From: Thauera aromatica K172
GTDB lineage: Bacteria > Pseudomonadota > Gammaproteobacteria > Burkholderiales > Rhodocyclaceae
Direction: 5' to 3'
Length of the DNA stretch: 64,000 nt
Assembly (NCBI RefSeq): GCF_003030465.1
Contig: NZ_CP028339.1
Span: 682,001 to 746,000 of the forward strand
Positions 29,325 to 64,000 of the stretch are shown here, piece by piece. Under the pieces are notes generated by a model. That model made no database searches. It was not told the DNA's origin and saw only the letters and a program-made list of their open reading frames with translations. The first letter of the stretch is position 1. Every line of letters starts with the position of its first letter. Made by a program: the position numbers and the translations under genes.

Positions 29325-29819
29325 CTACAAAAGACCAGACTCGGCGAACGAGTACGGTGTGCCCTGACCAATCACGAAATGGTCAAGTACCCGCACGTCG
29401 ATAAGCGCCAAGGCCGTCTTCAACTGCTCGGTCAGCAAGCGATCCGCATTGGATGGCTCGGTGGTGCCCGAGGGGTGCTGATGGGCGAAGATGACCGCAG
29501 CGGCGTTCAGTTGCAAAGCGCGTTGCAGCACGACACGCGGATAAACCGAGGTCGCATTGATCGTTCCATGGAACATCGGCTCCACGGCCAGCACGTCGTG
29601 CATGCTGTTCATGAACACGACGACGAATATCTCATTGGGCTCGGCGACCAGCTTCAAGCGAAGGTAGTCCCTGACCGCAGCGGGCCGTTCAAGACGTGGC
29701 CCTGCTTTGAAAACCCGTCGCTCCAGCAACACGATGGCTTGCTGGACGATCCAGTCCTCGTTCTGAACAGAAATATCGGAAAGCGACTCCAGGCAGGAGT
29801 CATTGATGACGACAGACAT
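29325..29819 (-). CDS. radC: RadC-like JAB/MPN domain protein
   Basis: A 164-aa protein of the RadC/JAB family with the metal motif in FAHQHPSGTTEPSNAD (His-x-His-Pro and Asp) and an upstream conserved Glu in VEPMF. The helix-hairpin-helix domain of chromosomal RadC is missing, as in most mobile-element versions. Biochemical role is unresolved; JAB domains can be metalloproteases, and the old DNA-repair label is doubtful. GGAGG precedes ATG 29819 by 7 nt. It has its own long structured leader (29859-30030) and terminator, so it is a self-contained unit inserted in the tra run. Confidence 0.88.
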   Translation of the reverse strand: MSVVINDSCLESLSDISVQNEDWIVQQAIVLLERRVFKAGPRLERPAAVRDYLRLKLVAEPNEIFVVVFMNSMHDVLAVEPMFHGTINATSVYPRVVLQRALQLNAAAVIFAHQHPSGTTEPSNADRLLTEQLKTALALIDVRVLDHFVIGQGTPYSFAESGLL

Positions 29820-29858
29820 GGCGAACCTCCAGGCAGGGAAATCGGAGGGCGCACATGC

Positions 29859-30030
29859 CCCTGGAGGGCAGGCCCTCCAGGGAATGGAACAAGGTGCATC
29901 CATCACCGCAGCAGCGGTGATCGTTCGCGGCCAGGATGCGGGGCGAACGGGTAGCGGTCAGCGCAGCGTGCTGCGCCGTAGCCTCAATGACCGCGGGCTA
30001 CCTGGGCATGTCGCCGACGACGTCGGCAGG
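29859..30030 (-). ncRNA. Pseudoknotted 5' leader RNA, copy 1 (radC-motif-like)
   Basis: Minus-strand order: P1 (30027-30022 with 30018-30013, GCCGAC/GTCGGC) followed by GACATG; P2 (30001-29996 with 29983-29978, GTAGCC/GGCTAC); a P2-loop strand GCGGTCA (29994-29988) pairing with TGACCGC (29960-29954); P3 between them (29976-29970 with 29967-29961); P4 (GCATCC 29939-29934 with GGATGC 29901-29896) enclosing an 8-bp hairpin; and a proximal perfect 11-bp hairpin (29882-29872 with 29869-29859) 40 nt before the radC start. Its upstream part overlaps the last codons of the DsbA-like gene. Confidence 0.8.
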
Positions 30031-30762
30031 CATTTCCGTAGTGGGTGAAACGACCGAATCCTCAGCTGCCAGCATGTCCATGGCCGACAGCAGTGCATCG
30101 CCTTCGATAGGCCCCTGCAGCAGGATCGCCTGGCTGGTCTGGCGATCGTGTAGTCGCAGGGATGGCGTCGCGGTCACGCCGCCCTTGGTGGCTTCCTCGG
30201 CCTGAGCGCGAATCAACGTTTCGGGCCGCTCGCTGGCCAAACACTGCTCGACGGCTGGGTTTAGGCCGGGATAGCGCAGGCCCTCGGGCAAGCCCAGGCC
30301 GTCACTGCGCGTGTGCGCATAGACCCATTCAATGGCCTGCCAAAAGGCCACATGCCCGCCACTTTCGGCGGCGCACTCGGCCAGGCGTGCCTCGGCAGAG
30401 GCGGCCGGTTCGTGCGCGGCCAGCGGCTGGTGCTGCCATTGCAGGGCTACGTCCGCGTTGGCGCCCACCCAGCGTTTGAGTTGCGGAAAGTACTCCCGGC
30501 AGAACGGACATTCGAGGTCGGCATAGAGCGTCAGCGTGAACCGGCCCTGCGCGTTGCCCATTTGCCAGGGCGGCCCGGCCACCTGCGCGGTACTGACCGG
30601 CGCGGGAGCCAACGACGCGGGTTCGCTGGGTGCGCGGGACACGAGCCAGATCAGCAGCAGCGCGATCAATCCAGCGGCCAAGAACCAGGGCCAGCGCTTG
30701 CGCGAGCGCCGATGGCGGAGCGCCTGGACTGGCATCGGAATGGAAGGATGTTTCGGTTTCAC
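29998..30762 (-). CDS. DsbA/thioredoxin-fold thiol oxidoreductase
   Basis: A 254-aa membrane-anchored protein: basic N-terminus, one helix (about residues 27-41), a Pro/Ala linker, then a thioredoxin fold with CPFC at 85-88 and a cis-Pro loop (VTATPSLRL) near 204. The CPFC site is typical of DsbA-type oxidases acting in the periplasm, probably on the Cys-rich TraU-like and other transfer proteins. The start is GTG at 30762 with GGAG 6 nt upstream. Its last codons also form part of the radC leader. Confidence 0.85.
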   Translation of the reverse strand: MKPKHPSIPMPVQALRHRRSRKRWPWFLAAGLIALLLIWLVSRAPSEPASLAPAPVSTAQVAGPPWQMGNAQGRFTLTLYADLECPFCREYFPQLKRWVGANADVALQWQHQPLAAHEPAASAEARLAECAAESGGHVAFWQAIEWVYAHTRSDGLGLPEGLRYPGLNPAVEQCLASERPETLIRAQAEEATKGGVTATPSLRLHDRQTSQAILLQGPIEGDALLSAMDMLAAEDSVVSPTTEMPADVVGDMPR

Positions 30763-48533: not shown

Positions 48534-50813
48534 TTAGGTAGCGACCAACTGCCGAGCCAGTGCGACCTCGACGGAATCACCGTCCTGGTTCAGAACATCC
48601 AGCCCCGATTCGGGCACATCGCCCGAGGTGGACTGCGAGACCATGATCTTCTTGGCCATCAGTTCCAGGCAGGTCATCTGCGAGGAACCGGCGTAGCCGA
48701 GGTAGATCACGCGCACGGGCTGTTTCTGCCCAATGCGCCAGGAGCGGCGTGCTGCCTGTTGGAGCGAGTACACGTTGTAGCCACTTTGCATGAACACAAT
48801 CGTCGGGAACTCCAGCAGGTCCAGCCCCGTCTTGACCAGCTCGGGATTGGTGACGAGCACGTCGATGCCCCGGTCCAGTTGCTCGGCGATCCAGTCCTCG
48901 CGGCGGCTGGCATCCACGCTTGCGCGCAGTACCGCCACCTTGAATCCTTCCTGCTCCAGCAGCCCCTTCAGGCGTGACGTGGTGTCGCGCGTTCCGGTAT
49001 AGACCGTGTAGGCCAGAACCTTGCGCCCCTGTTCCTTCTCCGCTTTGCAGATGTCGATCAGCTCGCGCTCCTTGGGGCTGATCTCGAACTCATTGAACTG
49101 AGCCGGGACAAACGCCAAGGTGTTGCGCGTGCGCGGATGCACCACGGTCTCCGACCGGAAGCAGCAATCCGGCCAGGCCAATAGCACGTTGAGCACCACC
49201 CCCAGCAAGGTCGTATCGCGTCGCGCCAGAGCCTGTTTCAGTTCTGCGGTCAGCCGACCCGCCAGATCGCGGTAGGCCGCAGCTTGCGCCACGTCCATCT
49301 GGACTTCACGAAACTCCTCGTCATACGGCGGCAGGACGTTGCCACCGATGTCCTTGAGCTTGAGGAAAATCGTAAACGGCAGGATGCAGCGCAAGACGCC
49401 TTTCGGGCCGAAGCCGGGAGCCTTGACCGTGCGCACCGATACCTTGGTGCCTTTGGCTGTCTTGTGCGCCGTGCCGGCGCTCTCGGAGTAGATGTCCTTG
49501 AGGACGCCGTGATCGCGCATGAATGCCATCGCAGCCGAGGTCATGCTGCCGCTCGTGGTCGGGCGGTAGCCGTCTTCGATCATCCGTCCGGGCAGTGCCC
49601 GGAACAGCAGGTAGAACAGATCATCGCCGTAGCCGCCCATCAGCGTGCCGGTCAGCAGCAAGGTCTTGCGAGCCTTCGCCGCCAGCACGCCCATGGCCTG
49701 GCCCTGGGCACTGCCACCGTTCTTGTACTCGTGCGCCTCGTCGGCGATGAGCAGGTCGAACGTGCCTTGCGGTAGGTAGCGTTTGATGAACTCGGACGGT
49801 TGGTAGCCGCCTTCGCCAAAGCCAAACTCCATGTTGGCCATCGCACGTTCCATGCGCGTGGCCTGACGGTCGGAAAACACCAGCTCGCCGTTGCCATCCA
49901 TGAGGTTGATGAACTCATGGATGTTGTCGCCCAGCATCGAGGCCAGGAAGCCGTCACCGAACTTCTGCATCAGCTTCTGTGCAGTGACTTCCCCGATGGT
50001 CGGGATGCGCTTCAAGGCTTTGAGGACGACCGAGGACTGGTCGCTGCCGGACAGGCTACGCGGGCGGATCAGCGTCCACAGGGGCGCGGCGCAGTGGCTG
50101 CACTTCCTGCGGGACTCCTCGGCTTCGAGCGCGACCGGGTTGACCGGCTCGCCGTCGAGGTCGGTGATGAGTGTGCCGCAGTCCGGGCAGGCTGCCACGT
50201 CGCCGTGGCGGGTGCGCCGCTGGGTGAAGACAGGTTTCCAGTGGAACCCCATCCGCATCCTGACGCGCCCCAGGATGAAAAACTCCTGGCCCGTGGGCTG
50301 CACACCCAACTGCTCGCGCAGCTTGATGAGCTTGACCAGCGTGTCCGGGCCATTGAGCACCCAGACCTTGGCGCCGGCCACCGTCTCCTGGATCTCACGC
50401 CGCCACTTGTAAACCAGGTGGGGAGGCGAAAGCACCAGGGTGCGGCGGTAGCCTTCGGCGTTGAGCACGGCGGCCGTGGCGATGCCGACGGTCGTCTTGC
50501 CGCAGCCCATTTCGCCATTGACGATCGCAGCGCGCTCGCCTTGATCGACCAGCAGCTCGGCGGCGGCATGGACAACTTCAGCCTGGGCCTGGAACAGCTT
50601 GCGCTTGAGGCTGGCAACGACGAGTTGCCGCTGCGCCTGTGCTTGACCGGCATAGACCGGCGGGTTGGCGCGGTTGAGAGAATCGAGCAGTTCGTCGCCG
50701 AACTCGCCGACGAAAACCTGAAGGCTCAGGGTCAGAGGGTTGGATTCCGCTTCGAGCAGTTCGCCCTGTACGGGCGCTGCATCGTTGGCGGTGGTGTTGA
50801 GATCAACGGACAT
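48534..50813 (-). CDS. SNF2-like DEAD/DEAH helicase with zinc ribbon
   Basis: A 759-aa superfamily 2 helicase/ATPase: Walker A GEMGCGKTT near residue 100, DEAH in IADEAHEYKNG near 356, a Cys-4 zinc ribbon between about 205 and 240 (ACPDCGTL and KCSHCAAP), and helicase motif VI QAARRSWRIGQKQPVRV near 690. The RIGQ motif is typical of SNF2 enzymes. These genes are regular in this ICE class, probably remodelling DNA during replication or establishment. The leader 50814-50880 holds a CGGGGC/GCCCCG hairpin ahead of a GGAG site. Confidence 0.87.
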   Translation of the reverse strand: MSVDLNTTANDAAPVQGELLEAESNPLTLSLQVFVGEFGDELLDSLNRANPPVYAGQAQAQRQLVVASLKRKLFQAQAEVVHAAAELLVDQGERAAIVNGEMGCGKTTVGIATAAVLNAEGYRRTLVLSPPHLVYKWRREIQETVAGAKVWVLNGPDTLVKLIKLREQLGVQPTGQEFFILGRVRMRMGFHWKPVFTQRRTRHGDVAACPDCGTLITDLDGEPVNPVALEAEESRRKCSHCAAPLWTLIRPRSLSGSDQSSVVLKALKRIPTIGEVTAQKLMQKFGDGFLASMLGDNIHEFINLMDGNGELVFSDRQATRMERAMANMEFGFGEGGYQPSEFIKRYLPQGTFDLLIADEAHEYKNGGSAQGQAMGVLAAKARKTLLLTGTLMGGYGDDLFYLLFRALPGRMIEDGYRPTTSGSMTSAAMAFMRDHGVLKDIYSESAGTAHKTAKGTKVSVRTVKAPGFGPKGVLRCILPFTIFLKLKDIGGNVLPPYDEEFREVQMDVAQAAAYRDLAGRLTAELKQALARRDTTLLGVVLNVLLAWPDCCFRSETVVHPRTRNTLAFVPAQFNEFEISPKERELIDICKAEKEQGRKVLAYTVYTGTRDTTSRLKGLLEQEGFKVAVLRASVDASRREDWIAEQLDRGIDVLVTNPELVKTGLDLLEFPTIVFMQSGYNVYSLQQAARRSWRIGQKQPVRVIYLGYAGSSQMTCLELMAKKIMVSQSTSGDVPESGLDVLNQDGDSVEVALARQLVAT

Positions 50814-50948
50814 GGTGATGCTCCAAAGAAAAATGGGACATGCACCACCCCAGCGGGGCGATGGCATGCCCCGTGGTGGGAAGAGAGACGGCGAACCGTC
50901 GGTGGTTGGACAGTGCAGGCGCTCGTGGCCTGCGGTGACAACTCGCGG

Positions 50949-51323: not shown

Positions 51324-51635
51324 TCAGTACTCGCTGGGCAACAGCAGCGTGGTGACGCTGCGATCCCATTCGGTGATGATCCAGAGCTTCAGGCCGGGTG
51401 TGACCTGGTAGGAAGAGAACAGGCGATCCTCACCGGACTTCAGCGCGGCATCGTTCTGCCGCCTGTCGCTGTCGTCGAGGTCGCCCCAGTCGCCACCGAG
51501 GTGGCGGCGCAGATACGGAATCGGGTTGAATTGGCCCTGTTGGATCAGGTCATCGACGCCGCAGGTCATGACCACCTGGCCGGGCGAGAAGCGCAGGCTC
51601 GGGGTCTGGCTGATGGAAAGTGCTTGGGCTGCCAT
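51324..51635 (-). CDS. Small ICE protein of unknown function (LPSEY paralog 2)
   Basis: A 103-aa protein with the same GDWGD centre and LPSEY end as its neighbour 70 bp downstream, but a longer N-terminal part (SLRFSPGQVVMTCGVDDLIQ). The repeat suggests duplication inside the element. Function unknown; the Asp/Trp-rich core could be a protein-binding surface. AGGAG lies 7 nt before ATG 51635, and a GC-rich leader with repeated GGGG/CCCC blocks precedes it. Confidence 0.72.
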   Translation of the reverse strand: MAAQALSISQTPSLRFSPGQVVMTCGVDDLIQQGQFNPIPYLRRHLGGDWGDLDDSDRRQNDAALKSGEDRLFSSYQVTPGLKLWIITEWDRSVTTLLLPSEY

Positions 51636-51699
51636 GGAAGGCTCCTGGAGATGGAGGGGCCACGGCACCCCATCGGGGCGACTGGACCCCGGTGGGTGG

Positions 51700-51722
51700 A
51701 AAAAATCGACGGCGAACCGCCG
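51700..51722 (-). terminator. Intrinsic terminator after the DUF6094 gene
   Basis: On the minus strand CGGCGG-TTCG-CCGTCG (6-bp stem, one G-U) is followed by ATTTTTT. It begins 16 bp past the stop codon at 51738 and ahead of the leader of the next gene. Confidence 0.82.
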
Positions 51723-53574: not shown

Positions 53575-53640
53575 GGTGGTGTCCTCGGATGAACGGGAAC
53601 AGCATCGCCCGCAGGGGGCAAGCACTGCCCCTTGGGGTGG

Positions 53641-53674: not shown

Positions 53675-54066
53675 GTAGCTGGAGCTGTGGCTTCCTTGGA
53701 TGTGCGCCGCCGCGCGTGGTAGGCGCGAACGCCTGCACGCCAGTCGGCGGATTGCTCCGGTGCGAGGTTCAGATAGGACAGCGGGCACGAGTAGTAGTAC
53801 GGGTGCATGGATTCGTCCAGTGGCTTATAGCCCCACTGGCCGCCGCTGCGTTCCAGCAGATCGCAGCGGATGGTGCACAGGGACTGGCCCGGTGCGAGAT
53901 CACGGTGTACGCCTTCGGCCTTGGCCGTCACTTGCACAACAGACCAGAGGACGTTGCCACGCAGCGCGTGGGCGATGACCTTCACGCTGGCGCGTTCGGT
54001 CTCTTGCGGTGCGATCAACTCCGCGATCAGTTCAGACCGCGATTGGGGTGAGAAATACCAGCCCAT
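53659..54066 (-). CDS. ICE protein of unknown function (135 aa)
   Basis: A 135-aa soluble protein starting MGWYFSPQSRSELIAELI, with VKVIAHALRGNVLWSVVQVT and CDLLERSGGQWGYKPLDES. I recognise it as a recurrent ICE/plasmid protein but cannot name a tested function. AGGAGG lies 7 nt before ATG 54066. Its leader carries a CACCGCA-TC-TGCGGTG stem (54129-54145 region) and GGGG/CCCC blocks. Confidence 0.72.
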   Translation of the reverse strand: MGWYFSPQSRSELIAELIAPQETERASVKVIAHALRGNVLWSVVQVTAKAEGVHRDLAPGQSLCTIRCDLLERSGGQWGYKPLDESMHPYYYSCPLSYLNLAPEQSADWRAGVRAYHARRRTSKEATAPATALTV

Positions 54067-54160
54067 GAGAGGCCTCCTGGAAAAATTGAGCCAGAAGCCT
54101 CCCCGGTGGGGAAGACCCCCGGCGGGTGGATGAAGCACACCGCAGATGCGGTGCCCAGTA

Positions 54161-54859: not shown

Positions 54860-54954
54860 GGTGGTACTCCTGATGATGAATGACGGACGGCTGGTGGCAG
54901 CCGGTGGATGAGAGGAAATGAACCTCGCCCGAGGTGGGCAAGGTCCACTTGGCA

Positions 54955-55782
54955 TCACGCCTTGAGCTGGCGCATGCCTTCGGCCAGGAGCCACAACGCC
55001 CGGTTCAGGCGCAGGTTCTGGTCGATGCCTTGCACCGGGCGGGTGCGCTGATTGCGGCCATTGGCCGAGCGTCCATTCAGGCCCCCCTTGACGAGGTTCT
55101 CTTGGACACGGTTGAAGACGGCCCACAGGTCATCCCTGCGGTCGTCCCAGCGCCTGGGCGCGAGCAGTTGACGCTCCGTGACAGGCGTCGGCTTGGCAGG
55201 ATCGTCGTACTTGAGTGCCAGCGCTGAGTGCGCGAAGATTTCTGCTTCGCCCTCATCGAGGGTGATGGTGCGCATCGCATCGCGCGAGTCCTTCACGCGC
55301 TCGAAGCCTTCAAGGACTTCGTAGGCGCCTTCGATCACCTGGCTGGCCACATCCCCCTTGTGCGGGACACGGATGTCGGCGGTGGTATCGCCGCAGACCA
55401 GGCCGTTGTGGCAGACGAATCTGAACATGCCTGCCAGCATCTGGTAACTGCTCGTGCCGTCGTGGCTGTTGAGCAGGATGATCTCGTTCGCCTCGTCGCC
55501 GTTGATCTGGCTGGCATGGCGAAGTCGGATGAGATGCTTGGTGTGCTCGCGCCGATCCTCGTTGCGCACGCGCGTCTGGCACACCATGAAGGGCTCGAAA
55601 CCCTCCTGGCGCAGCTTGGCGAGCACGGTCGAGGTCGGTATGTAGGCATACCGCTCGGATCGGCTCCCATGCGGAGCGTCGGCGAAGATTGATGGAGCAA
55701 TGGCGCGAATGCGGTCGTCCGAGAGCGGGCGATCTGAGCGCAGGATCGGGGACTGCGGAGCAAAACGGGATGCCAGAGACAT
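54955..55782 (-). CDS. DUF932 domain protein
   Basis: A 275-aa DUF932 protein, a family widespread on plasmids, ICEs and phages, with typical blocks YAYIPTSTVLAKLRQEGFEP, LVCGDTTADIRVPHKG and RLNRALWLLAEGMRQLK. Function is unresolved; a role in DNA or RNA handling during establishment is often guessed. CAGGAG precedes ATG 55782. The 150-bp leader contains GGCCCC/GGGGCC and GCTGCA/TGCAGC hairpins (near 55900 and 55885). Confidence 0.88.
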   Translation of the reverse strand: MSLASRFAPQSPILRSDRPLSDDRIRAIAPSIFADAPHGSRSERYAYIPTSTVLAKLRQEGFEPFMVCQTRVRNEDRREHTKHLIRLRHASQINGDEANEIILLNSHDGTSSYQMLAGMFRFVCHNGLVCGDTTADIRVPHKGDVASQVIEGAYEVLEGFERVKDSRDAMRTITLDEGEAEIFAHSALALKYDDPAKPTPVTERQLLAPRRWDDRRDDLWAVFNRVQENLVKGGLNGRSANGRNQRTRPVQGIDQNLRLNRALWLLAEGMRQLKA

Positions 55783-55932
55783 GGCTGTTCTCCTGTGAAA
55801 AATGCGACAACCGCGCGGCCGTCTGACCACGCGGAACTCGGGGGAAGAAATGCGCGAGCGCGCTATGCGGATGGAGGACGCTGCAGATGCAGCAAGGAGA
55901 AGCGGCAAGGCCCCATGAGGGGCCATGCCGGA

Positions 55933-56847
55933 TCAGAACGAAGCAGCCAATGCCGGCTCCTGCTCCTCGACTTCACCTTCGGGCTCGCACTCGGCGGGCT
56001 CGGCAGGCTGATCTGCAGCGGGGGCGGCGTCCTCGGCTTCGGGCGCGGGAGCGTCCTGGGCCGGCGGCGAATCTGCTTGCGCGGGGCTCGTCGGATAGAC
56101 CTTGGTGCCGTCGATCTTGATCAGGCCGATGTGGATCAGTGTCGAATCCAGGCTTGCGGCCGGTTCCCCAGCGCGCTCACCCTTGGTGCGGATGTACGGA
56201 TCGATCTTCATGTCGTTGAGACGGAAAGCGATCAGCACCTTGCAGTCCCCTTCGATGGCCTGCACGCACCGGCGAACCAGATGCTCGGCTTCAGGGGTGG
56301 TGACGATGCTGTCGAAGTACCGATACTCCGGTTCATCGACAGGCCCGGCCAGAGCGGCGACGGTGCAAGAGAGGAACGGGTCGCCATCTTTGGGTGTGAC
56401 GTCCTTCGGACGGCTGAGGTAGCCGATGCCGCGGGTGACCAGCTCGTGCTGCCTGATCGAAGCCAGTTCGGCCCGGTCAAGCGGCTCGGCCTTGAGCAGT
56501 CGCGCCTTGAGGGACGCGGCGGCTTGGCCTTTCTGCTCACCCTTGTCGCGGATATACGCATCGCCCCACAGGTCGCCGAGGCGAAAGCGCACCAGTGGGC
56601 GCTGCTTGGGATCGTCAACGCCGATGTAGCGCTCGACCAGCTTCTTGGCCTCGGCACCCGAGACCTTGACGTCGAAATAGCGATAGCTGGGATCCTTTGC
56701 GGAACCGACCAGCGCGGCGATGGTGCATGCCAGGAAAGGCTGCGCACGGCGGCCGCCCCGAACAGGCACTTCACGGGCACGCTGGATGTAACCGATGCCC
56801 GAGGTGTGGAGGTCGAAATACGATTTCTCGTTGGACGTGGTGCTCAT
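55933..56847 (-). CDS. STY4534-family ICE replication protein (DUF3577)
   Basis: A 304-aa protein built of two clear repeats: residues about 15-115 (GIGYIQRAREVP ... PSYRYFDVKVSG ... VRFRLGDLWGDAYIRDKG) and 130-235 (GIGYLSRPKDVT ... PEYRYFDSIVTT ... IAFRLNDMKIDPYIRTKG). A Pro/Glu/Ala-rich acidic tail follows, like the tail of single-strand-binding proteins. Members are annotated as ICE replication proteins; the duplicated fold and tail suggest ssDNA or replisome binding, which is inference. The leader RNA at 56894-57073 precedes it. Confidence 0.85.
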   Translation of the reverse strand: MSTTSNEKSYFDLHTSGIGYIQRAREVPVRGGRRAQPFLACTIAALVGSAKDPSYRYFDVKVSGAEAKKLVERYIGVDDPKQRPLVRFRLGDLWGDAYIRDKGEQKGQAAASLKARLLKAEPLDRAELASIRQHELVTRGIGYLSRPKDVTPKDGDPFLSCTVAALAGPVDEPEYRYFDSIVTTPEAEHLVRRCVQAIEGDCKVLIAFRLNDMKIDPYIRTKGERAGEPAASLDSTLIHIGLIKIDGTKVYPTSPAQADSPPAQDAPAPEAEDAAPAADQPAEPAECEPEGEVEEQEPALAASF

Positions 56848-56893
56848 GGTGAATCTCCATAGGGATGAAGCGGAGACACACCGGCCCCACGCA

Positions 56894-57073
56894 GCGGGGA
56901 AAGGTGCGTAACCCCGCGATGGGTTGATAAGGCGAAAGCATCCACCACCAGAGACTGGTGGCCGCTCGCGGATGGATGCGGTGCGAGCTGGCTCGGTCAC
57001 GCAGTGGGAACTGCGCCGCAACCTCGAAGACCGATGGTTGCCTGGCATGTCGCTGACAACGTCAGCAGGCATG
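56894..57073 (-). ncRNA. Pseudoknotted 5' leader RNA, copy 2 (radC-motif-like)
   Basis: P1 GCTGAC-GTT-GTCAGC (57066-57061 with 57057-57052), flanked by CATG on both sides; P2 GCAACC/GGTTGC (57041-57036 with 57023-57018); loop strand CGGTC (57033-57029) pairs with GACCG (56998-56994); P3 CGCAGT/ACTGCG (57015-57010 with 57005-57000); P4 GCATCC/GGATGC (56979-56974 with 56943-56938) enclosing CCACCAG/CTGGTGG; proximal GCGGGG/CCCCGC (56917-56912 with 56899-56894). The DUF3577 start follows 47 nt later. With the terminator below this fills the 378-bp gap. Confidence 0.82.
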
Positions 57074-57157
57074 GGCTCAGCATGGCCAGGCCTCGCGCGC
57101 GAGGCAGCCATCAATCGGTATCCGATCGTTTCCCTTTGATGAAATCTCCCACGGCAG

Positions 57158-57191
57158 AAAAAAGGCCCTCCTTCCGAATGGAGGGAGAGCC
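57158..57191 (-). terminator. Intrinsic terminator after the 57226 gene
   Basis: Minus strand: CCCTCC and GGAGGG pair across an 8-nt loop inside a GGC/GCC outer pairing, followed by TTTTTT. It lies 35 bp past the stop codon and closes that transcript before the DUF3577 leader begins. Confidence 0.85.
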
Positions 57192-57225
57192 TGTGGGGGC
57201 ATGTCGCCTGGTACTTTTCGTGGTG

Positions 57226-58038
57226 TCACGCCGGTACAGCGCGGCGCCGTCGGGACGTCTCCGCGCCGATCACGCTCACGTCGATCAGGCGCCAGCGCCC
57301 GTCGTCTATGAGTCGCTCCAGCACTTCGCCGAGCATGTCGAAATACACCTCGTCGTGCCGATCGACCAACTCGCCGTCGCGGCGCAGCTCCACCGCATAG
57401 GTATCGCTGCCGGGCTGGTAGAGGATCGTCACCTGGCCGGCGAACTTCGCGGTCGAAACCGTGAAACTGATCGCCGGAGGCGTTTCGATGATCCTGGACG
57501 GCGTCGGATCGACCCAGGTGAAGTCGTGGGCGCCCGCATCGACCAGCATGTGGGTGATGCGCCGGAACCCGTCGGGCGCCGGCATTTCCTCCAACTGCTC
57601 GATGAGCTGACCCAGTTCCATGCACTGCGGCTCGGGAATGGGCAACTTGGCCGGCGCGGAGCCGAGGATGTGTGTCTTGACGGTGTAGGGCGTGCCGTCG
57701 GACATCATCTCGGTGCGCTCTTCAGGCGTGTCCGCACGCAGACCGTCGAAACGACGACGGGCATAGGGTTGGACATGCACCTTGGTGCCCTCGCTGGGAA
57801 CGGTGGTCACCAGGTTGGGATCGAGTACCGCGAACTCGCTGGGCTTGAGCTTGACGACGATGGCGTCTTCGCTGGCTGCGACCACCTTGCCGTCGAAGGG
57901 CTGGGGATCAATGACAAAGCCCAGTGTCGAGGACTGTGGCTGATCATCGAACACGCGGTACTTGAACGACCGCACGTTGCGGGGCACATGGCCTGCGACC
58001 AGCGAAGGCATCAGGGTCTTGATAAGAGAGCGATCCAT
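57226..58038 (-). CDS. ICE protein of unknown function (270 aa)
   Basis: A 270-aa soluble protein beginning MDRSLIKTLMPSLVAGHVPR. Beta-rich N-terminal half (RSFKYRVFDDQPQSSTLGFV) and a C-terminal half with FTVSTAKFAGQVTILYQPG. No signal, no membrane helix, no motif I can tie to a reaction. It ends in a basic stretch (SRRRRAVPA) that could bind nucleic acid. AAGGAG lies 7 nt before ATG 58038. Leader RNA copy 3 precedes it. Confidence 0.7.
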   Translation of the reverse strand: MDRSLIKTLMPSLVAGHVPRNVRSFKYRVFDDQPQSSTLGFVIDPQPFDGKVVAASEDAIVVKLKPSEFAVLDPNLVTTVPSEGTKVHVQPYARRRFDGLRADTPEERTEMMSDGTPYTVKTHILGSAPAKLPIPEPQCMELGQLIEQLEEMPAPDGFRRITHMLVDAGAHDFTWVDPTPSRIIETPPAISFTVSTAKFAGQVTILYQPGSDTYAVELRRDGELVDRHDEVYFDMLGEVLERLIDDGRWRLIDVSVIGAETSRRRRAVPA

Positions 58039-58077
58039 GTGAATCTCCTTGAGGAAGAACAAGGGATTCCCCGCCCG

Positions 58078-58209
58078 CAAGGGAGAGGTCCCTTGTGGGT
58101 GGATGGGCGCGATGCGTCCGTAGAAAGAAACAACCAGCACGGTTTCCCGCGCTTGCAGCCTTGAAGGTCTTGGCTGCCTGGGCATGTGTCGGCAACGCCG
58201 ACGAACATG
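58078..58209 (-). ncRNA. Pseudoknotted 5' leader RNA, copy 3 (radC-motif-like)
   Basis: P1 GTCGGC-GTT-GCCGAC (58202-58197 with 58193-58188) extended by CATGT/ACATG (58209-58205 with 58187-58183) with a TC bulge; P2 GCAGCC/GGCTGC (58177-58172 with 58160-58155); loop GACC (58169-58166) pairs with GGTT (58135-58132); P3 AGCGCGG/CCGTGCT with a GAAA loop (58153-58147 with 58142-58136). P4 is not evident. Proximal perfect hairpin CAAGGGA-CCTC-TCCCTTG (58095-58089 with 58084-58078), 39 nt before the start codon. Confidence 0.8.
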
Positions 58210-58318
58210 GGGTAAAGATGGCCCTTGAGTGAGCGGCCTGCGCTCAGGAAACCGCACCGCGCCGCACCCGCTTTCCTGCGCCGCGACAAGAAAAGGCCCC
58301 TCGAAAGCGGCTGGGTGG

Positions 58319-58597
58319 TCAGACTTGGTACACGAAGTAGTGTTCGCGCTGACGTGGAAAGAACACGTGCTTCCACGAGTCGCCGCCGGTATTGCCGCCG
58401 TCGAAGACGACCATTTCGTAGGCATCAATGTCGGTGTCTGCCAGATCGGCGCTGGCGATATGGCGCATGTGCAGCATGCCGCTCAAGCGCTCGAATACCA
58501 GGATCTGGCCGATGGCGTCGTCCTGGCCCATGGCGTTGACGCAGGCTCCAAGCTGATGCTCGAAGTCGCGTGCGGGCGAGATGAGGTCGGGGAACAT
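58319..58597 (-). CDS. Small ICE protein of unknown function (92 aa)
   Basis: A 92-aa acidic protein (DLADTDIDAYEMVVFDGGN near the middle; ends EHYFVYQV). No known domain. AGGAG precedes ATG 58597 by 7 nt. Its leader carries an 8-bp stem CCAGCCCG/CGGGCTGG enclosing a second CTCC/GGAG pairing, shortly before the ribosome site. A weak GCC/GGC stem with TTTTC follows its stop near 58290. Confidence 0.68.
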   Translation of the reverse strand: MFPDLISPARDFEHQLGACVNAMGQDDAIGQILVFERLSGMLHMRHIASADLADTDIDAYEMVVFDGGNTGGDSWKHVFFPRQREHYFVYQV

Positions 58598-58691
58598 AAA
58601 GTGCTCCTATGGAATTGGACCAGCCCGGCTCCCAGAAAGGAGACGGGCTGGCATGGAGGGCAAAGAGGAAGGTGGGCGCGTGGTGTGTTTG

Positions 58692-59429
58692 CTAGGGCTC
58701 GGCCAGCGGCAGGCCCAGCAACACGGGCGCGTCAGCGTCGAGGATGAGGATGCGCACATCGGCCTGGCCAGCCAGCTCCAGGATGTTCGCCAGGTCGGCG
58801 GGCATGCCCTTGCTGCGGTGCTCCTGCCGAAGCTGCTCGGCGGTGATGCCCTCGGCGTGCTCCAGGTTCTTGTCCGTCCAGGGCGTGGAGATCAGCTTGA
58901 CGCCGATCGCCGGGCTGTACGGAACCCGAAAGGCGATGAACAAAAAGGCCTCCGGCGTGGCAAGGTCCGCCAGGTTGGCGAGGTACTGGCCGGTTTCCTG
59001 GCTGATGTGCGCGCTGCTGATCTCCCAGCATCGGCTGTAGTAGCCGGTCTCGAAACTCAGGCGCTGCACAACTTCCCGCGCGGCTTCGACCGAATAGCTG
59101 TCACCGACGTGGATCAGGCGGCCGTCGAAGTCCTCGCCATGAATGGCATAGACCACGGCACCGATCACGCCTTCGCCGTTAACGCCTTCATCGGCATCGC
59201 ATTCGGCCAGTGCTTCGGCACTCACAGGTTCAGAGCCGTTCGTGACCACCGCAAAATCGCTGGTGACGATGCAGGACGATGAAATCAATTCCTCGTCGGA
59301 AAGATGTTGTTGGCTCGGGTGGATGTTTCGCCAGACATGCGGAATTCCGTCCTCGTAGCTGATGGACAGCGTGCGGACGATCTTCAGATTCCAGTAGCCG
59401 CGGAGAAAGGGATTGGGATTCTGGGACAT
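58692..59429 (-). CDS. DUF5983-like ICE protein
   Basis: A 245-aa soluble protein. Pieces such as LRGYWNLKIVRTLSISYEDG and DFAVVTNGSEPVSAEALAEC recall DUF5983-containing plasmid proteins; the assignment is from memory of the family and moderate. No catalytic motif is visible. Its start at 59429 is preceded by GGAG, which is caught in the three-way leader fold described at 59430-59490. Confidence 0.68.
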   Translation of the reverse strand: MSQNPNPFLRGYWNLKIVRTLSISYEDGIPHVWRNIHPSQQHLSDEELISSSCIVTSDFAVVTNGSEPVSAEALAECDADEGVNGEGVIGAVVYAIHGEDFDGRLIHVGDSYSVEAAREVVQRLSFETGYYSRCWEISSAHISQETGQYLANLADLATPEAFLFIAFRVPYSPAIGVKLISTPWTDKNLEHAEGITAEQLRQEHRSKGMPADLANILELAGQADVRILILDADAPVLLGLPLAEP

Positions 59430-59490
59430 GGGAACTCTCCAGATTTGAATAATGGAGCCAATTCCCGCCACCGGGAATTGGACCCGGTGG
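59430..59490 (-). promoter_or_regulatory. Three-way alternative leader fold masking a ribosome site
   Basis: Minus strand. Stem A: CCACCGGG/CCCGGTGG (59490-59483 with 59475-59468). Stem B: CCAATTCCCG/CGGGAATTGG (59481-59472 with 59467-59458), which cannot coexist with A. Stem C: GGGAA/TTCCC (59466-59462 with 59434-59430) plus CTCC/GGAG (59457-59454 with 59440-59437), which masks the Shine-Dalgarno and excludes B. A plus C would be off, B on. A ligand, protein or ribosome could choose; which one is unknown. Confidence 0.6.
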
Positions 59491-59509
59491 GTTGAAAGTG
59501 GAAAATGCG

Positions 59510-60196
59510 TCAGGCGGCGCTGATCGTCGGCGTCTGGGCCAGTCGTTCGGCGACGCGATGGCGCACACTCAGGCGGAAATGCTCGTCGTTGATGCCGGCG
59601 AGCAGGTTGGCGGCCTCCAACGCGATCAACGCCGAGGCCTCTTCGATGTCGGTGGCCACGATGGCCTTGCGCAGTTGGTCGCCGAGTTGGAGCGCCTGCG
59701 AGGACGTTCTGAAGACCTGTACCTCGCGGCTCAGGTAGCAGCCGTGGCCACCGAACTCGAACAGCCTTGGCTTGCTGCAATACCAGCAGCCCTCGAACTG
59801 GATGGCGGTCAGGTGATGGCCGTCATCGAAGCGGGAGGCGATCAGAAGCAAGGCTTCCAGGTCGGCGCTGTCCTCGAACTGGTGGTGCTCGATCAGGTTC
59901 TCCAGCTCCCCGTCCTGGTCAGCGCCGAAGTGCGCGGCCAGCCGTTCAAGCAGAGGCGGAATCGACAACTCTTCGTCGTCGGGCATGGGGATGCCGAGTT
60001 GTGCGGCCAGGTTTTCCAGACCGTCCAGCACATCTGTCCATCGCGGATTATTGGTCTCGGCGATCTGGGCGATGTAGGCCTGCCCATTGCTGGGATGGTG
60101 TTCGTCCAGCCTGAAGGCACCGAACAGTGCCTTGATGACGGGAGTAACGTGGTCGAGCACGAGAACGCCCGTGCCTTCGTAGTAGTTGTTTGCCAT
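59510..60196 (-). CDS. ICE protein of unknown function (228 aa)
   Basis: A 228-aa acidic, helical protein (MANNYYEGTGVLVLDHVTPV at the start; LYRSREV-like and CWYCSKPRLFEFGG segments in the middle with a CxxC). No family recognised. The CWYC pair might bind metal, but one pair is not enough to claim it. Its ribosome site lies within a perfect hairpin directly before ATG 60196, suggesting translational control. Confidence 0.68.
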   Translation of the reverse strand: MANNYYEGTGVLVLDHVTPVIKALFGAFRLDEHHPSNGQAYIAQIAETNNPRWTDVLDGLENLAAQLGIPMPDDEELSIPPLLERLAAHFGADQDGELENLIEHHQFEDSADLEALLLIASRFDDGHHLTAIQFEGCWYCSKPRLFEFGGHGCYLSREVQVFRTSSQALQLGDQLRKAIVATDIEEASALIALEAANLLAGINDEHFRLSVRHRVAERLAQTPTISAA

Positions 60197-60230
60197 GCTG
60201 GCTCCTTTCGGGGAAGTGAGCGGAGCCAGC
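60197..60230 (-). promoter_or_regulatory. Perfect hairpin sequestering the Shine-Dalgarno site
   Basis: GCTGGCTCC (60230-60222) pairs fully with GGAGCCAGC (60205-60197), ending immediately before ATG 60196. The AAGGAG ribosome site is in the 3' arm and stem base. Such a stem should keep translation low until melted by a protein, another RNA or a moving ribosome. Confidence 0.7.
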
Positions 60231-60298
60231 CCATGCGGACGACGGCATCCGCAGGGAATCGCCCAAGGCCGTTGGCGCCGGGCGATGGGGAAGAAATT

Positions 60299-60330
60299 GA
60301 GGGACATGGCCTTGTGGGCGCATGTCCCTC
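60299..60330 (-). terminator. 10-bp perfect hairpin after the 60372 gene
   Basis: GAGGGACATG and CATGTCCCTC pair around a 12-nt loop, followed on the minus strand by AATTTCTTCC. The T-run is weak, so it may be a terminator or a relic of a CATG-flanked leader hairpin. Confidence 0.5.
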
Positions 60331-60371
60331 ACGGGGGGGATCGAGAGGACGGTGGCGTGCCGGAGACCGGC

Positions 60372-60764
60372 TCACCAGCCGTTGTAGTTCACCAGCAGGT
60401 CGGCGATGACCTTGCGGCGCTCCAGATCGAGACCGTCGAAGTCCGACAGCCCGTGGAAGTGGCAGCGCTTGAGCATGGCACCGCCCTCGCGCGCGTTGTA
60501 GAAGCTGACCATGGCGGACAGGAACATGCGTTCGCCGCTGCTCAGGACGCCGAGGGCATCGTTGAGCCGCAGCATGTCGGGACGCAAATCCCACTTGGTG
60601 TTGGCCTGGTTCAGGCCTTCACGGGTGCCGTCGCCGAACCACTCGGGACCAGCAATCTCGACACCGCGCTTCCAGGCCTCGAAGAAGGCTTGGGGCGCGG
60701 CAGCGAAACGCTGATCTTCCCGCATGATCTGATCGACGACTTCCCGCGGCAATAGCTGGTTCAT
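60372..60764 (-). CDS. ICE protein of unknown function (130 aa)
   Basis: A 130-aa soluble helical protein (EVVDQIMREDQRFAAAPQAF; ALGVLSSGERMFLSAMVSFY). No known domain. GGAG lies about 10 nt before ATG 60764. Only 21 bp separate it from the gene at 60786-60998, so those two probably share a transcript governed by leader RNA copy 4. Confidence 0.7.
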   Translation of the reverse strand: MNQLLPREVVDQIMREDQRFAAAPQAFFEAWKRGVEIAGPEWFGDGTREGLNQANTKWDLRPDMLRLNDALGVLSSGERMFLSAMVSFYNAREGGAMLKRCHFHGLSDFDGLDLERRKVIADLLVNYNGW

Positions 60765-60785
60765 GACGTGATTTCTCCAGTTGGA

Positions 60786-60998
60786 TCAGGGAACGGCGAG
60801 CTGGGACCAGCCGCCTCTTTCGAGGGCGCGTTGAGCCGCGGCATAGCTGCGGAAGTACTCGCGGGATTCCCGCGAAACGGGACCTTCGGTATCGCGCGTG
60901 CCGATGTAGTGGCCGGCGGCGCTTTGCAGGACTTCGAGCGGCAGGAACTTGCCGCAGTAGGTCAGGGCCAACTGGCCGAAAGAGGCTTGCTGGGACAT
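60786..60998 (-). CDS. Small ICE protein of unknown function (70 aa)
   Basis: A 70-aa protein (MSQQASFGQLALTYCGKFLP; ESREYFRSYAAAQRALERGG). Too short for confident family assignment, yet the AAGGAG site before ATG 60998 and its leader RNA support a real gene. A longer frame to 61055 would run through the leader hairpin and is rejected. Confidence 0.65.
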   Translation of the reverse strand: MSQQASFGQLALTYCGKFLPLEVLQSAAGHYIGTRDTEGPVSRESREYFRSYAAAQRALERGGWSQLAVP

Positions 60999-61035
60999 GG
61001 ACGGGCTCCTTGGAAAAGCGGGGCCTCGTCCCTCA

Positions 61036-61197
61036 CGGGATGGCAGCTCCCGCACGCGGTTGGAAAAAAAGCATCGGCGTCACGGGGACGCGCGTCCGCG
61101 AGATTGATGCGATGCGGACTGGTGGGTGACGCGGGAGAGACCCGCGGCAGCCTGGAACCCTGGCTGCTGGCATGTGCTGACGAATCAGCGAACATGC
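61036..61197 (-). ncRNA. Pseudoknotted 5' leader RNA, copy 4 (radC-motif-like)
   Basis: P1 GCTGA-TTCG-TCAGC (61189-61185 with 61180-61176) extended by GCATGT/ACATGC (61197-61192 with 61175-61170); P2 GCAGCC/GGCTGC (61167-61162 with 61152-61147); loop GGGT (61160-61157) pairs with ACCC (61127-61124); P3 CGCGGG/CCCGCG (61146-61141 with 61135-61130); P4 GCATCG/CGATGC (61115-61110 with 61076-61071), changed in step relative to GCATCC/GGATGC of copies 1 and 2; proximal CGGGA/TCCCG (61052-61048 with 61040-61036). It fills most of the 332-bp gap. Confidence 0.82.
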
Positions 61198-61275
61198 GGG
61201 CAGCTTCGTGCGAGGGCCGCTCGGCGTCAGTGGGAAAACGGCATCCGGCCCAGCCCCGATTGATGGGCGCAGAGA

Positions 61276-61305
61276 AAAGAAAAGCCCCGCATCGAGTGCG
61301 GGGCT
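61276..61305 (-). terminator. Intrinsic terminator after the 61331 gene
   Basis: AGCCCCGCA and TGCGGGGCT pair perfectly (9 bp) around a 5-nt loop, followed on the minus strand by TTTCTTTTC. It lies 26 bp past the stop codon, separating that gene from leader copy 4. Confidence 0.9.
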
Positions 61306-61330
61306 GTCAGGAGGGTGCGGTGGCGCTGGG

Positions 61331-61888
61331 TCAGTCGGGCTTGTCGCCCAGGACATGCTGCTTCCACAAGTCGAATGCCTGCTCGGGCGGAAGCTCGGCG
61401 AGGATGACGATGGGCTGGGCCTGCCGGCTGCGCAGCTTTGCAAAGTACGCCGCGCGGTCGGCAATGGCCTTGAGCTTGATGCCCTTGATGAACAGCAGTT
61501 TGCCGTCCTTGATGAACAGCACCTTGTTGCCGATGTCGCGGTTGAACGCGGCTCGCACCTTGCGTTCCGCGTGCATGGCATCGGCCAGCTCATCGACCAG
61601 GAAGTCGAGCGTCATGTCGATGTAATGAGGATCTTCGCCCTCCTGGCCGAGATCGAGCGGCGTGGGCGGCAGGCCCTTGGCGAAGGCTTCGGCCTGAGCC
61701 AGCAGCGCCGCCTTGCCGTTGAGTGCGCGTAGGAACGTCGATCCGCCATGCCCGTCGTTGCGGGCCTCGGCGATGGGAGTGTCGTCGAACACGATGGTGG
61801 CGGTGAAGCACAGCGTTTCCTCGCTGGCGAAGTCGGCCACCTTGAGGTTCTTCAGCGTGATGCGGTTTTGCTTGGTGATGGTTTCCAT
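61331..61888 (-). CDS. ICE protein of unknown function (185 aa)
   Basis: A 185-aa soluble protein. Segments METITKQNRITLKNLKVADF, CFTATIVFDDTPIAEARNDG and KVLFIKDGKLLFIKGIKLKA are well formed, but I cannot name a domain. No signal or membrane helix. Encoded just after the cytosine methyltransferase gene, with its own leader RNA (copy 5) and a strong terminator, so it forms a separate transcript. Confidence 0.72.
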   Translation of the reverse strand: METITKQNRITLKNLKVADFASEETLCFTATIVFDDTPIAEARNDGHGGSTFLRALNGKAALLAQAEAFAKGLPPTPLDLGQEGEDPHYIDMTLDFLVDELADAMHAERKVRAAFNRDIGNKVLFIKDGKLLFIKGIKLKAIADRAAYFAKLRSRQAQPIVILAELPPEQAFDLWKQHVLGDKPD

Positions 61889-61927
61889 GGGAAGTCCTGA
61901 AATCGACCGGGCGGCGACATGCCCCTG

Positions 61928-62088
61928 ACGGGACGTGGCGACCATCCCGTGGGTTGGAGAAAGGAGGCATCGATGCCCCGGTGGGCAGCGTTCGCCGGTG
62001 AGATGCCGAAGCGAACTGGCGGGTGGCGTGGGCGGAACCCACGGCAGCCTGGACACCCTGGCTGCGGGCTGCTGCCGATACATCGGCA
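61928..62088 (-). ncRNA. Pseudoknotted 5' leader RNA, copy 5 (radC-motif-like)
   Basis: P1 TGCCGA/TCGGCA (62088-62083 with 62078-62073), here without a clean CATG extension; P2 GCAGCC/GGCTGC (62065-62060 with 62049-62044); loop GGGTG (62058-62054) pairs with CACCC (62025-62021); P3 CGTGGG/CCCACG (62043-62038 with 62032-62027); P4 GGCATC/GATGCC (62007-62002 with 61971-61966); proximal ACGGGA/TCCCGT (61950-61945 with 61933-61928). The start codon of the 61331-61888 gene follows about 40 nt later. Confidence 0.8.
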
Positions 62089-62131
62089 ATGCAGGAAGGA
62101 GAATGGCGCGGCCCGCAGGCTGCGTCGCCGA

Positions 62132-63739
62132 TCAAACCGAAGCGGTCGAGCCCGTCTTGTGCAGGCACTGCATCAGCCGGTGGCCCAGCCAAGCCATGCA
62201 CGGGACGGCCATGGAGTTGCCGATCGCCTTGTAGCGCGGAGCGTCCGCGGCAGGCTTGCCGCGGTATGGGATCAGCGTGTAGTCGTCGGGCATGCCCTGC
62301 AGCCGCTCGCACTCCATGGGCATCAGCCGCCGCACCCGCCAGTGCGACCAGTCGCCGGGGCCGGGGTCGTTCCAGTCGTAGCGGAAATGCGCCTCGAAGT
62401 CGGGGGCCAGCACATGGGGCTTGTCCGCGCCGCCGCCGCTGGTGCGCAGTGCGGCCGCTACGCTGCCGCCCAGCTCGGCGGCAAGACCCTGCGGCCGTCC
62501 CCGCAGGGCAACGCAGGCCACCATCGGCACCCCGTAGCCTGGCTTGCCGTTGGACAGGACGGTGCAAGCCACCTGTCCGTGGCCCGACTCGAAGCGCACT
62601 TCGCCGCGGTTATTCTGCGCGAACGCGATGGCAGGCACGACACCGGCGTTCGCATGGCTGTTGCGATGCCCGCCAGCGCGCAGCGTCGGCGTCAGGTCGA
62701 TCGTCGCATCCGCGCCGTTGCCCTGGGCGGTGAAGGCGATGATTGGCACGCCCTTGCCCGTGCCGTCCTCGCTGCTGCCCTTGCCGTTGTTGGCGGTATC
62801 GAGGGCATGGGCGATGCTGCCGGCGACCGACTGCACCATGAACGTCTCGGTGCGGATGTCGTGCTTGGGGCCAGCGGCCATCAGGCATGCCGCCACATCG
62901 ACGGGGCCGGTGCCGCCGCTGAATCCGAACGTCGTCGTGACCTGACCGTAGGGCTGCTTCAGTCCTGCGTATCCCGAGTACTCGCCTGCTGCCGCAGCAC
63001 CCGGTCCAGCAGCGCGGGCAGCTTCTTGCCACGGCGCGCGGCCCGCAGAAGAATCCCCGCGCAGGCCTGGGCGCTCAAAAAGTACTTCGGCGGGATCGAG
63101 GTCATCACCACCACATGCCACAAGAAACACGCGCTTGCGGCGTTGGGCGACACCGAAATATTGAGCGTCGAGCACGCGCCAGGCGATGCGGCGGCGGGGT
63201 CCAGACACACAACCAGCGTGCGCCCATTTTTCCCCTGGCGGCTGGAGCGCACGGCCTTCTCCGGCCAGTGCGCCCAGGAAATGCCCGAAGGCATTGCTGC
63301 GGTCGTTGAGGACGCCGGGGACGTTTTCCCAGACGAGCGTTGCCGGCGAGCGGCGGTTTTGGTGGCGGGTTTGGTCGATGGCATTTGCAAGCTCCACATA
63401 GGCAAGGGTCAAGGCTCCACGCGGGTCGTTCAGCCCCTGGCGCGCGCCGGCAACGCTGAACGACTGGCACGGCGTGCCGCCGACCAGGATGTCGGGCGCT
63501 GGCACGATGCCGGAGCGCACCTGGCGGGCGATCGCGGTCATGTCGCCGAGGTTGGGCACGTGGGGGTAGCGGTGGGCGAGCACGGCGCTCGGGAAGGCGT
63601 CGATCTCGGCGAACCACGCGGCTTGCAGGCCGAGAGGTTGCCAGGCGAGGCTCACGGCCTCGATGCCGCTGCACACGCTGCCGTACAGCAGTGGCGCGGC
63701 CTGGGGCGCACCGCGAAGGGTGCGAGGTTGCGGGTTCAT
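62132..63739 (-). CDS. C5-cytosine DNA methyltransferase
   Basis: A 535-aa DNA (cytosine-5)-methyltransferase. Motif I YGSVCSGIEAVSLAW near residue 20, motif IV GGTPCQSFSVAGARQG with the catalytic Cys near 84, motif VI ENVPG, motif VIII GVAQRRKRVFLVA, and motif X KAIGNSMAVP near the end. A long region between VIII and IX (about 230-440) would hold the target-recognition part. No restriction endonuclease is adjacent, so an orphan, self-protecting role is likely. CAGGAG precedes ATG 63739. Confidence 0.92.
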   Translation of the reverse strand: MNPQPRTLRGAPQAAPLLYGSVCSGIEAVSLAWQPLGLQAAWFAEIDAFPSAVLAHRYPHVPNLGDMTAIARQVRSGIVPAPDILVGGTPCQSFSVAGARQGLNDPRGALTLAYVELANAIDQTRHQNRRSPATLVWENVPGVLNDRSNAFGHFLGALAGEGRALQPPGEKWAHAGCVSGPRRRIAWRVLDAQYFGVAQRRKRVFLVACGGDDLDPAEVLFERPGLRGDSSAGRAPWQEAARAAGPGAAAAGEYSGYAGLKQPYGQVTTTFGFSGGTGPVDVAACLMAAGPKHDIRTETFMVQSVAGSIAHALDTANNGKGSSEDGTGKGVPIIAFTAQGNGADATIDLTPTLRAGGHRNSHANAGVVPAIAFAQNNRGEVRFESGHGQVACTVLSNGKPGYGVPMVACVALRGRPQGLAAELGGSVAAALRTSGGGADKPHVLAPDFEAHFRYDWNDPGPGDWSHWRVRRLMPMECERLQGMPDDYTLIPYRGKPAADAPRYKAIGNSMAVPCMAWLGHRLMQCLHKTGSTASV

Positions 63740-64000
63740 GTCGGGTCTCCTGTTCGTGTGGCCCTGGGCGGGCCGGGACGTTGATCGGCAGGAGAAAGAC
63801 GCCGAAGGCCCTGCGGCCTTCGGCTCGGGAGGACAGAACCACCCGTGGGCTGTTGCAGGCCCGGTCGTCGCTAGAACCGTCTGCTCATCAGCAATCACAC
63901 CCGGCCCATGTCGTGGCTGGGGCCGGCATCGTCTGGCGTGTATCCACACACAAACGGAGCCCAGTGTTTCGCCGGCGGGCACCGGCACCGAATACCGCTG
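63740..64000 (-). other. Non-coding stretch upstream of the methyltransferase gene
   Basis: No gene is supported here. On the minus strand it holds two perfect hairpins: CCGGCCC/GGGCCGG (63926-63920 with 63907-63901) and CCGAAGGCC-GCAG-GGCCTTCGG (63823-63815 with 63810-63802). The second lies about 60 nt before the start codon, where other genes of the block carry their proximal leader hairpin. P2, P3 and the pseudoknot of the leader family were not found. Confidence 0.5.

Follow-up and report, generated by a model that had tools for sequence, protein, structure and literature searches.

The 61-nt leader of a gene coding for a DUF5983 protein in a conjugative element of Thauera aromatica K172 (59490 to 59430 of the window, i.e., of the whole 64,000-nt stretch of DNA that was analysed; minus strand, between two minus-strand genes) can on balance be seen as probably being a two-state strand-exchange switch of translation, acting as RNA on the sense strand and common to genes of the element. 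Four segments would make up this device: the 5' arm and loop of a stem A (segment 1), the 3' arm of A (segment 2), a strand complementary to the Shine-Dalgarno sequence (anti-SD; segment 3) and the stretch from the Shine-Dalgarno sequence (SD) to the start codon (segment 4). With 1:2 and 3:4 paired (state A+C), the SD would be hidden and the gene shut; with segment 1 and a part of segment 2 paired to segment 3 (state B), the gene would be open, since the 1:3 pairing would free the SD from its strong partner, with weaker SD pairings still possible. Segment 1 is thus a mimic of segment 4, as both are complementary to segment 3. In the order of transcription, A would form first, B would displace it once segment 3 emerges, and A+C would prevail once segment 4 is complete; hence, newly made mRNA is predicted to pass through an interval with a more open SD. 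What appear to be related leaders precede several further genes in this conjugative element, and often follow a radC RNA immediately. The pairings, their coevolution, their recurrence before different genes and their adjacency to radC RNAs were all established by computation.

The gene downstream of the leader (58692..59429, minus strand) codes for a 245-aa protein with a C-terminal DUF5983 domain (PF19419, E 4.2e-22), and the gene upstream (59510..60196, minus strand) has no Pfam family. The original prediction, of a perfectly complementary 8-bp stem A, a likewise perfect 10-bp stem B using the 3' arm of A and a stem C over the GGAG ribosome site, is borne out by the minus-strand sequence, with both B and C being longer than claimed. 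Stem A joins CCACCGGG (59490-59483, the core of segment 1) to CCCGGTGG (59475-59468, segment 2) in 8 perfect pairs, and stem B joins CCAATTCCCG (59481-59472) to CGGGAATTGG (59467-59458) in 10 perfect pairs around a 4-nt loop. The 5' arm of B is made up of a part of the A loop and a part of the A 3' arm, and its 3' arm largely coincides with the 5' side of lower stem C. Across one mismatch, B is extended by the GGG of the A 5' arm (59485-59483) with TCC (59456-59454), one of these pairs being G-U. The latter three bases belong to the anti-SD, CTCCA (59457-59453, the core of segment 3), which in A+C forms the upper part of stem C with TGGAG (59441-59437; segment 4), i.e., the UGGAG ribosome binding site within which the GGAG lies. 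The lower part of C adds 7 pairs, one of them G-U, between GGGAATT (59466-59460) and AGTTCCC (59436-59430), by virtue of which the hairpin closes directly against the ATG (59429-59427). The comparison of free energies proposed along with the original prediction gives -16.2 kcal/mol for A, -21.4 for extended B and -29.9 for A+C. The leader folds better than its dinucleotide shuffles (z -3.92, none of 200 equally good; with flanks, z -2.99, 2 of 200 as good), and the opposite strand likewise has a stable fold (z -3.33), as near-palindromes must give. No Rfam family matched the DUF5983 leader (59200-60400, up to E 5), and hence it is not a match to the radC RNA (RF01754).

A scan of GTDB genomes returned 117 loci, the best 80 of which have proteins of 84-100% identity and 36 distinct leaders among them; in these, the leader is kept almost letter by letter while the preceding sequence drifts, and in one homolog (L020) it is kept after unrelated upstream sequence. 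More distant homologs came from overlapping groups of genomes: 20 of 200 relatives had one, as did 2 of 369 genomes of the class, 10 of 300 of the order and 6 of 25 from a Pseudomonas genus group, and, with another homolog as the query, 54 of 398 in the family of that genome. Further ones came from 9 plasmid records. The annotated neighbours include an STY4534 family ICE replication protein and, in one record, also DUF3275 and DUF932 genes, which we take to mark the homolog loci as conjugative elements of the pKLC102/ICEclc kind. Clustering at 88% identity gave 43 homolog leader clusters, from which 24 divergent leaders were retained, the other 19 being without the architecture or too divergent to align; the leader is absent in some divergent homologs (e.g., L133-L135, L165 and L167-L176). 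As a separate observation, five of the latter (L167, L168 and L171-L173) carry a different leader with a GGCG-rich, small-loop hairpin well 5' of the SD.

The 24 leaders were each cut into the A hairpin, the anti-SD strand and the SD segment, and the duplex energies of the native combinations were compared with those of swapped ones. In permutations that keep composition, though not the full phylogeny, the native value was reached 2 times for A, never for B and 5 times for C (7 in a repeat run) out of 20,000, as against 2,130 times for a control pairing of the A hairpin with the SD segment and 2,907 and 16,933 times for reversed controls. With one hand-chosen leader per clade (n=15), the corresponding counts were 37, 0 and 26, and 6,142 for the control. 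Thus, rather than only one of the stems being kept among homologs, which would have spoken against the predicted switch, all three pairings beat their swapped controls. Stem B repeatedly extends to the anti-SD, e.g., GGGGCCAAUUCCCG with CGGGAAUUGGCUCC in L149 (14 unbroken pairs, one of them G-U), GGAGCUUG with CAGGCUCC in L087 and GGGGCUCA with UGAGCCCU in L166. In fixed alignment columns, 87.5% of the cells of A+C are paired, which none of 500 shuffles reach, with few double changes; for B in 17 divergent leaders the value is 87.3%, reached by 7 of 500 shuffles, with one pair changed on both sides, no more than in shuffles. Both percentages drop when the register is slid. Fixed-column covariation for the stems is thus weak, and such counts are less telling here because the helices shift register between lineages. 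Across 24 close homologs, 98.4% of the cells of B are paired, and G-U cells (43) outnumber unpaired ones (5); six of the 13 pairs of B vary, each on one side only and by G-U, and the stems of this set hold no double changes. Such G-U-heavy variation suits an RNA of the sense strand. In 23 of the 24 divergent leaders, B is also stronger on the sense than on the antisense strand, much of this gap being composition, as swapped pairs show it too. RNAalifold gave A and a short helix near the SD for the divergent set and A+C for the close set, and returned B for neither. Taken together, the comparison with swapped leaders suggests that both the B and the A+C pairings are under selection.

A covariance model was built from 17 DUF5983 leaders, with A+C as its only structure. 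At E<0.05, it picks out nine sites in the window, each of them on the minus strand. One, at 59427, is the DUF5983 leader itself; of the remaining eight, one each stands before radC, a helicase-like gene and a DUF3577 gene, and five stand before genes that have no Pfam family. These related leaders lie at 54064..54134 (before the gene at 54066; 34.6 bits), 58036..58107 (before the gene at 58038 and overlapping the 3' end of a radC RNA; 31.5 bits), 51633..51704 (before the gene at 51635; 28.4 bits) and 50811..50885 (before the helicase-like gene at 50813; 22.3 bits), and, with a radC RNA immediately 5', at 60996..61068 (before a small ORF at 60998; 21.3 bits), 61886..61962 (before the gene at 61888; 19.3 bits), 56845..56931 (before the DUF3577 gene at 56847; 17.2 bits) and 29817..29892 (before the radC gene at 29819; 17.2 bits). 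In the whole 3.7-Mb genome, the four matches at E<0.01 all fall within the window, a fifth having an E of 5.2 (150 of 2,130 candidates scored); eight 20-kb host stretches (160 kb) gave nothing below E 0.27. The gene immediately upstream of the DUF5983 leader (59510..60196) has its own SD hairpin adjoining its ATG; this window copy is not among the listed model matches, and leaders at the matching position in other loci (e.g., L049:3170) do match the model. Across 32 related loci, there are 122 matches at E<=1, including at least three weak antisense ones (L085:1382, L015:5309 and L098:2236; E 0.26-0.70). In a search of 121 genomes with stricter filters, at which weak matches are lost, 25 had a match at E<=0.1, and 11 of these were without a DUF5983 match in the earlier search of relatives. 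Of 17 such leaders inspected by eye, seven precede proteins that start much like the DUF932 protein of the window, and three of the 17 open only 25-32 codons, which may not be genes.

From these matches, 78 were picked by hand, excluding near-duplicates and weak ones: all nine of the window and 69 of the 122 from the loci. All 78 end in an ATG, which the model itself contains. Clustering at 78% identity left 41, of which one (L189:13765) was dropped. In the resulting 40 diverse leaders, segments 1 to 4 were separated automatically, and a few that are still mis-segmented (e.g., L087:2200 and L160:2995) were retained. When native pairings were compared with swapped ones, none of 20,000 permutations reached the native value for 1:2 (z -12.8), 3:4 (z -7.6) or 1:3, i.e., B (z -10.0). 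As composition also differs between leaders, the reversed-strand control was subtracted, and the three remained at z -9.7, -5.5 and -6.6, respectively, again with none of 20,000. The value for B depends on the segmentation: a looser rule, which sometimes took B for A, gave z -5.6 with a reversed control at 18 of 20,000, and the tightened rule gave the -10.0. Leaving out the ten DUF5983 leaders (n=30), B still has z -8.7 (corrected -6.0). Pairings 1:4 and 2:3 gave no signal in the 40 leaders, and 2:4 lay above chance (z -3.2, corrected -2.2; 31 of 20,000), a weaker signal that is expected if segment 1 resembles segment 4. As the homolog pairings beat swaps and the architecture turns up again ahead of further genes in the element, the suggestion that antiterminator/anti-sequestor-type logic is here applied to translation finds support as an evolved design. 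The accompanying description as riboswitch-like holds for the logic of the expression platform alone, because a conserved ligand-binding core was not found in the 40 leaders, the loop of A being short and variable across them. Among open-licence PMC papers, no description of this leader was found, and the leaders apparently form a family of translation switches undescribed so far.

The temporal side of the proposed switch can be followed in predicted folds of growing transcripts. In the window leader, examined at every third length, A is the best fold at nt 45 and B the best at nt 60-75; the succession is not clean thereafter, since A together with upper C leads at nt 78 and B returns at nt 81, now with an upstream partner for the SD, before A+C takes over from nt 84 onward. 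When the fold is taken up to just before the SD, B is dominant in 27 of the 40 native leaders, as opposed to 12.7% of 472 chimeras, with 6.6 and 1.1 expected 1:3 pairs, respectively. Once the leader is full-length, C outweighs B in 32 of 40, and nascent B and full-length C hold jointly in 19 of 40; full-length chimeras favour C over B more often (94%) than do native leaders (80%). A+C is the lower-energy state in 32 of the 40, with the gap lying within 5 kcal/mol in 19. With state B modelled by barring 1:2 and 3:4, the median cost of opening the SD is 2.6 kcal/mol in B as against 7.1 in A+C, and 36 of the 40 leaders have the lower cost in B; for the window leader, the two costs are 2.6 and 6.4 kcal/mol, respectively. 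A drop is to be expected, since 3:4 is barred in the model of B, and it is its size that is informative. The SD in state B is loosened, not simply free: its median unpaired fraction is 0.30 in B against 0.25 in A+C and exceeds 0.5 in only 5 of the 40, because it finds weaker partners, e.g., the pyrimidine-rich lead-in. The models thus yield two mutually exclusive pairings predicted to differ in SD access, and B would be the ON state in cells. The direct-path barrier from B to A+C in the window leader, at 14.3 kcal/mol, implies that B could persist long enough for a ribosome to bind. The barrier from A to B prior to synthesis of the SD, at about 19 kcal/mol on the direct path, implies that A might itself persist, with B being skipped unless a loop contact opens a path. 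The A loop can pair with the anti-SD strand while A is still closed, and we therefore propose that a pseudoknot contact of this kind could start the exchange. An RNA thermometer was rejected for the window leader, its predicted unpaired SD fraction being 0.016 at 15 C and 0.039 at 48 C.

The dominance of B in these nascent folds would also suit transcription attenuation, in which B would be an intrinsic terminator or pause hairpin, the C loop its U-tract and A the antiterminator. Across the 40 leaders, bases -30 to -15 are indeed rich in U, with 34% T as compared with 17% for 80 host genes, a feature of the C loop that suits ribosome binding as well as attenuation; a 15-pair terminator with a T tail is scored for the leader at 54064; and the region 50000-64000 holds 22 terminator-like sites against 8.8 expected from shuffles, a few of them in leaders. 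A run of at least four T within 9 nt after B is present in 9 of the 40 leaders; however, the remaining 31, including all 10 DUF5983 leaders, have no run of four T after B, and the tail that follows B in the window leader itself (ATTATTCAA) has no T run. Attenuation would moreover leave the match of segment 3 to the SD segment (3:4) unexplained, and we regard it as unlikely in general, though it may apply to some copies.

Rather less credit still can be given to the view that there is just a plain SD-hiding hairpin with an upstream stabilising hairpin, B being a by-product of the similarity of GC-rich tandem hairpins. A and C are each well supported, and similar tandem hairpins would yield 1:3 along with 2:4 complementarity, the latter of which is above chance as noted. 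Yet, the signal of 1:3 is far stronger than that of 2:4, both as such and after correction; it extends to the A loop, on which A itself places no constraint (e.g., the 14 pairs of L149); and B is favoured about five times as often in native nascent folds as in chimeras. A decidedly improbable third reading is that ribosomes terminating at 59510-59512 would disrupt A and thereby shift the leader to B: the upstream stop codon ends 10 nt 5' of the modelled leader, and two further leaders of the window have a stop 26 and 33 nt 5' of them, respectively, but the five radC-adjoining leaders of the window have their nearest long upstream frame ending 105-211 nt before them, L020 keeps the leader despite unrelated preceding sequence, and the interval from the upstream stop to A holds no ATG, GTG or TTG. 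Hardly any weight falls on a DNA-level element, i.e., single-stranded DNA hairpins or protein-binding palindromes in transfer instead of RNA, which would fit genes that are part of a conjugative element, an opposite strand that folds about equally, a hairpin A equally stable on both strands and a C that is stronger as sense in only a part of the leaders (mean gap -1.5 kcal/mol), but is opposed by hairpins that end at the SD and the ATG, by variable B pairs that go to G-U on the sense strand and by the above-noted, partly compositional, sense bias of B.

The strand-exchange switch that we favour has parallels in known systems. In the ermC-type translational attenuator, tandem segments around the SD undergo alternative pairing by 2:3. 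There is thus a likeness in the use of alternative pairing of tandem segments around the SD, and a difference in that this pairing is here mainly 1:3. An erm-type attenuator with a leader peptide was rejected for the window leader, as inspection by eye shows none of the codons ATG, GTG or TTG in the stretch from that gene's upstream neighbour's stop to stem A (segment 1). The translational strand-exchange riboswitch platform (PMC10907184) likewise has a strand with two alternative partners, one within an upstream helix and one further downstream, and the resulting exclusive states differ in access to the ribosome site. In contrast to such riboswitches, there is no conserved aptamer between the halves of A in the 40 leaders, and one platform design stands before several unrelated genes of one mobile element. 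For the aapA3 toxin mRNA of H. pylori (PMC6733600), it is similarly proposed that transient co-transcriptional folds decide SD access; however, its transient hairpins hide the SD, whereas the transient fold predicted for the window leader loosens it.

The other recurrent partner of these leaders is the radC RNA (RF01754), of which the window has five, all on the minus strand (29896..30044, 56938..57083, 58073..58219, 61071..61206 and 61967..62104). Every one of them adjoins or overlaps a leader: four end 3-7 nt before it, and one overlaps it. Of the 48 radC RNAs in 15 other loci, 41 have a model match after them, starting -35 to 27 nt from the radC RNA end, and several of the seven without a match are followed by similar sequence as judged by eye. 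Conversely, when DUF5983 leaders are set aside, 19 of the 60 leader matches listed for those loci lack a preceding radC RNA. The radC RNA thus resembles the leader in standing before genes of the same element, adjoining or overlapping the platform, and is distinct from it in that the DUF5983 leader has no Rfam match and some copies of the platform are without a radC RNA. In Weinberg et al. 2010 (PMC2864571), the radC RNA is marked 'Y' as an RNA, 'y' as cis-regulatory and '?' as a switch, and the CaCoFold paper places radC among the families whose Rfam and ZWD alignments differ. The balance between the two states of the leader might be set by timing or by some factor, be it the time since synthesis, a protein, the radC RNA or another. 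A bolder, tentative proposal would be that elements of the ICEclc/pKLC102/SPI-7 kind carry an RNA regulon of their own, in which an interchangeable SD-mimic switch before many genes of the DNA-processing module answers a common signal, with the radC RNA as a sensor domain on the platform. For ICEHin1056, a DNA-processing module was shown to matter for transfer, which fell upon disruption of five of six genes (PMC3739013).

A test for hidden SDs in the whole module gave a positive outcome: with module limits set after looking and one methyltransferase value entered by hand, the median unpaired fraction of the SD is 0.16 in the whole module against 0.43 in 80 host genes (p 0.0004; p 0.003 without the two prompting genes), and it is below 0.02 in 4 of 11 module genes against 6 of 80 host genes (p 0.017). 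However, the energy of local hairpins did not differ between module and host genes (p 0.16), and neither did the rest of the window (p 0.27). The element might hold its transfer genes quiet by means of the switch. The leader family suggests that a widespread class of conjugative elements controls transfer genes at translation by a common RNA device; if so, this would constitute a new regulatory layer for horizontal gene transfer, and the orphan radC RNA would gain a downstream partner and a testable role. Being small, present in many sequence versions and without a built-in aptamer, the device also offers a natural set for the tuning of co-transcriptional strand exchange.

Several further observations concern neighbouring genes and homologs. 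The cytosine methyltransferase gene of the window (62132-63739) has an SD hairpin that closes near its ATG (predicted unpaired SD fraction 0.0002), with no match to the covariance model. An ORF of 177 nt in a pKLC102-like module (L108:1811-1987), presumably far too short for the expected length of an OXA beta-lactamase gene, is labelled as such a gene by PLSDB. An IncF plasmid of Enterobacter ludwigii (L189; NZ_CP116348.1) bears the same ICE module with nine model matches (E<=1), all ending at annotated starts, and the annotation given there to the DUF5983 gene is that of an ABC transporter substrate-binding protein. Finally, a perfect inverted repeat around GGGACATG...CATGTCCC is present at 60298-60331 of the window, and a similar hairpin occurs in the leaders of some divergent DUF5983 homologs (L133-L135 and L165), as if leader hairpins had been exchanged between genes.
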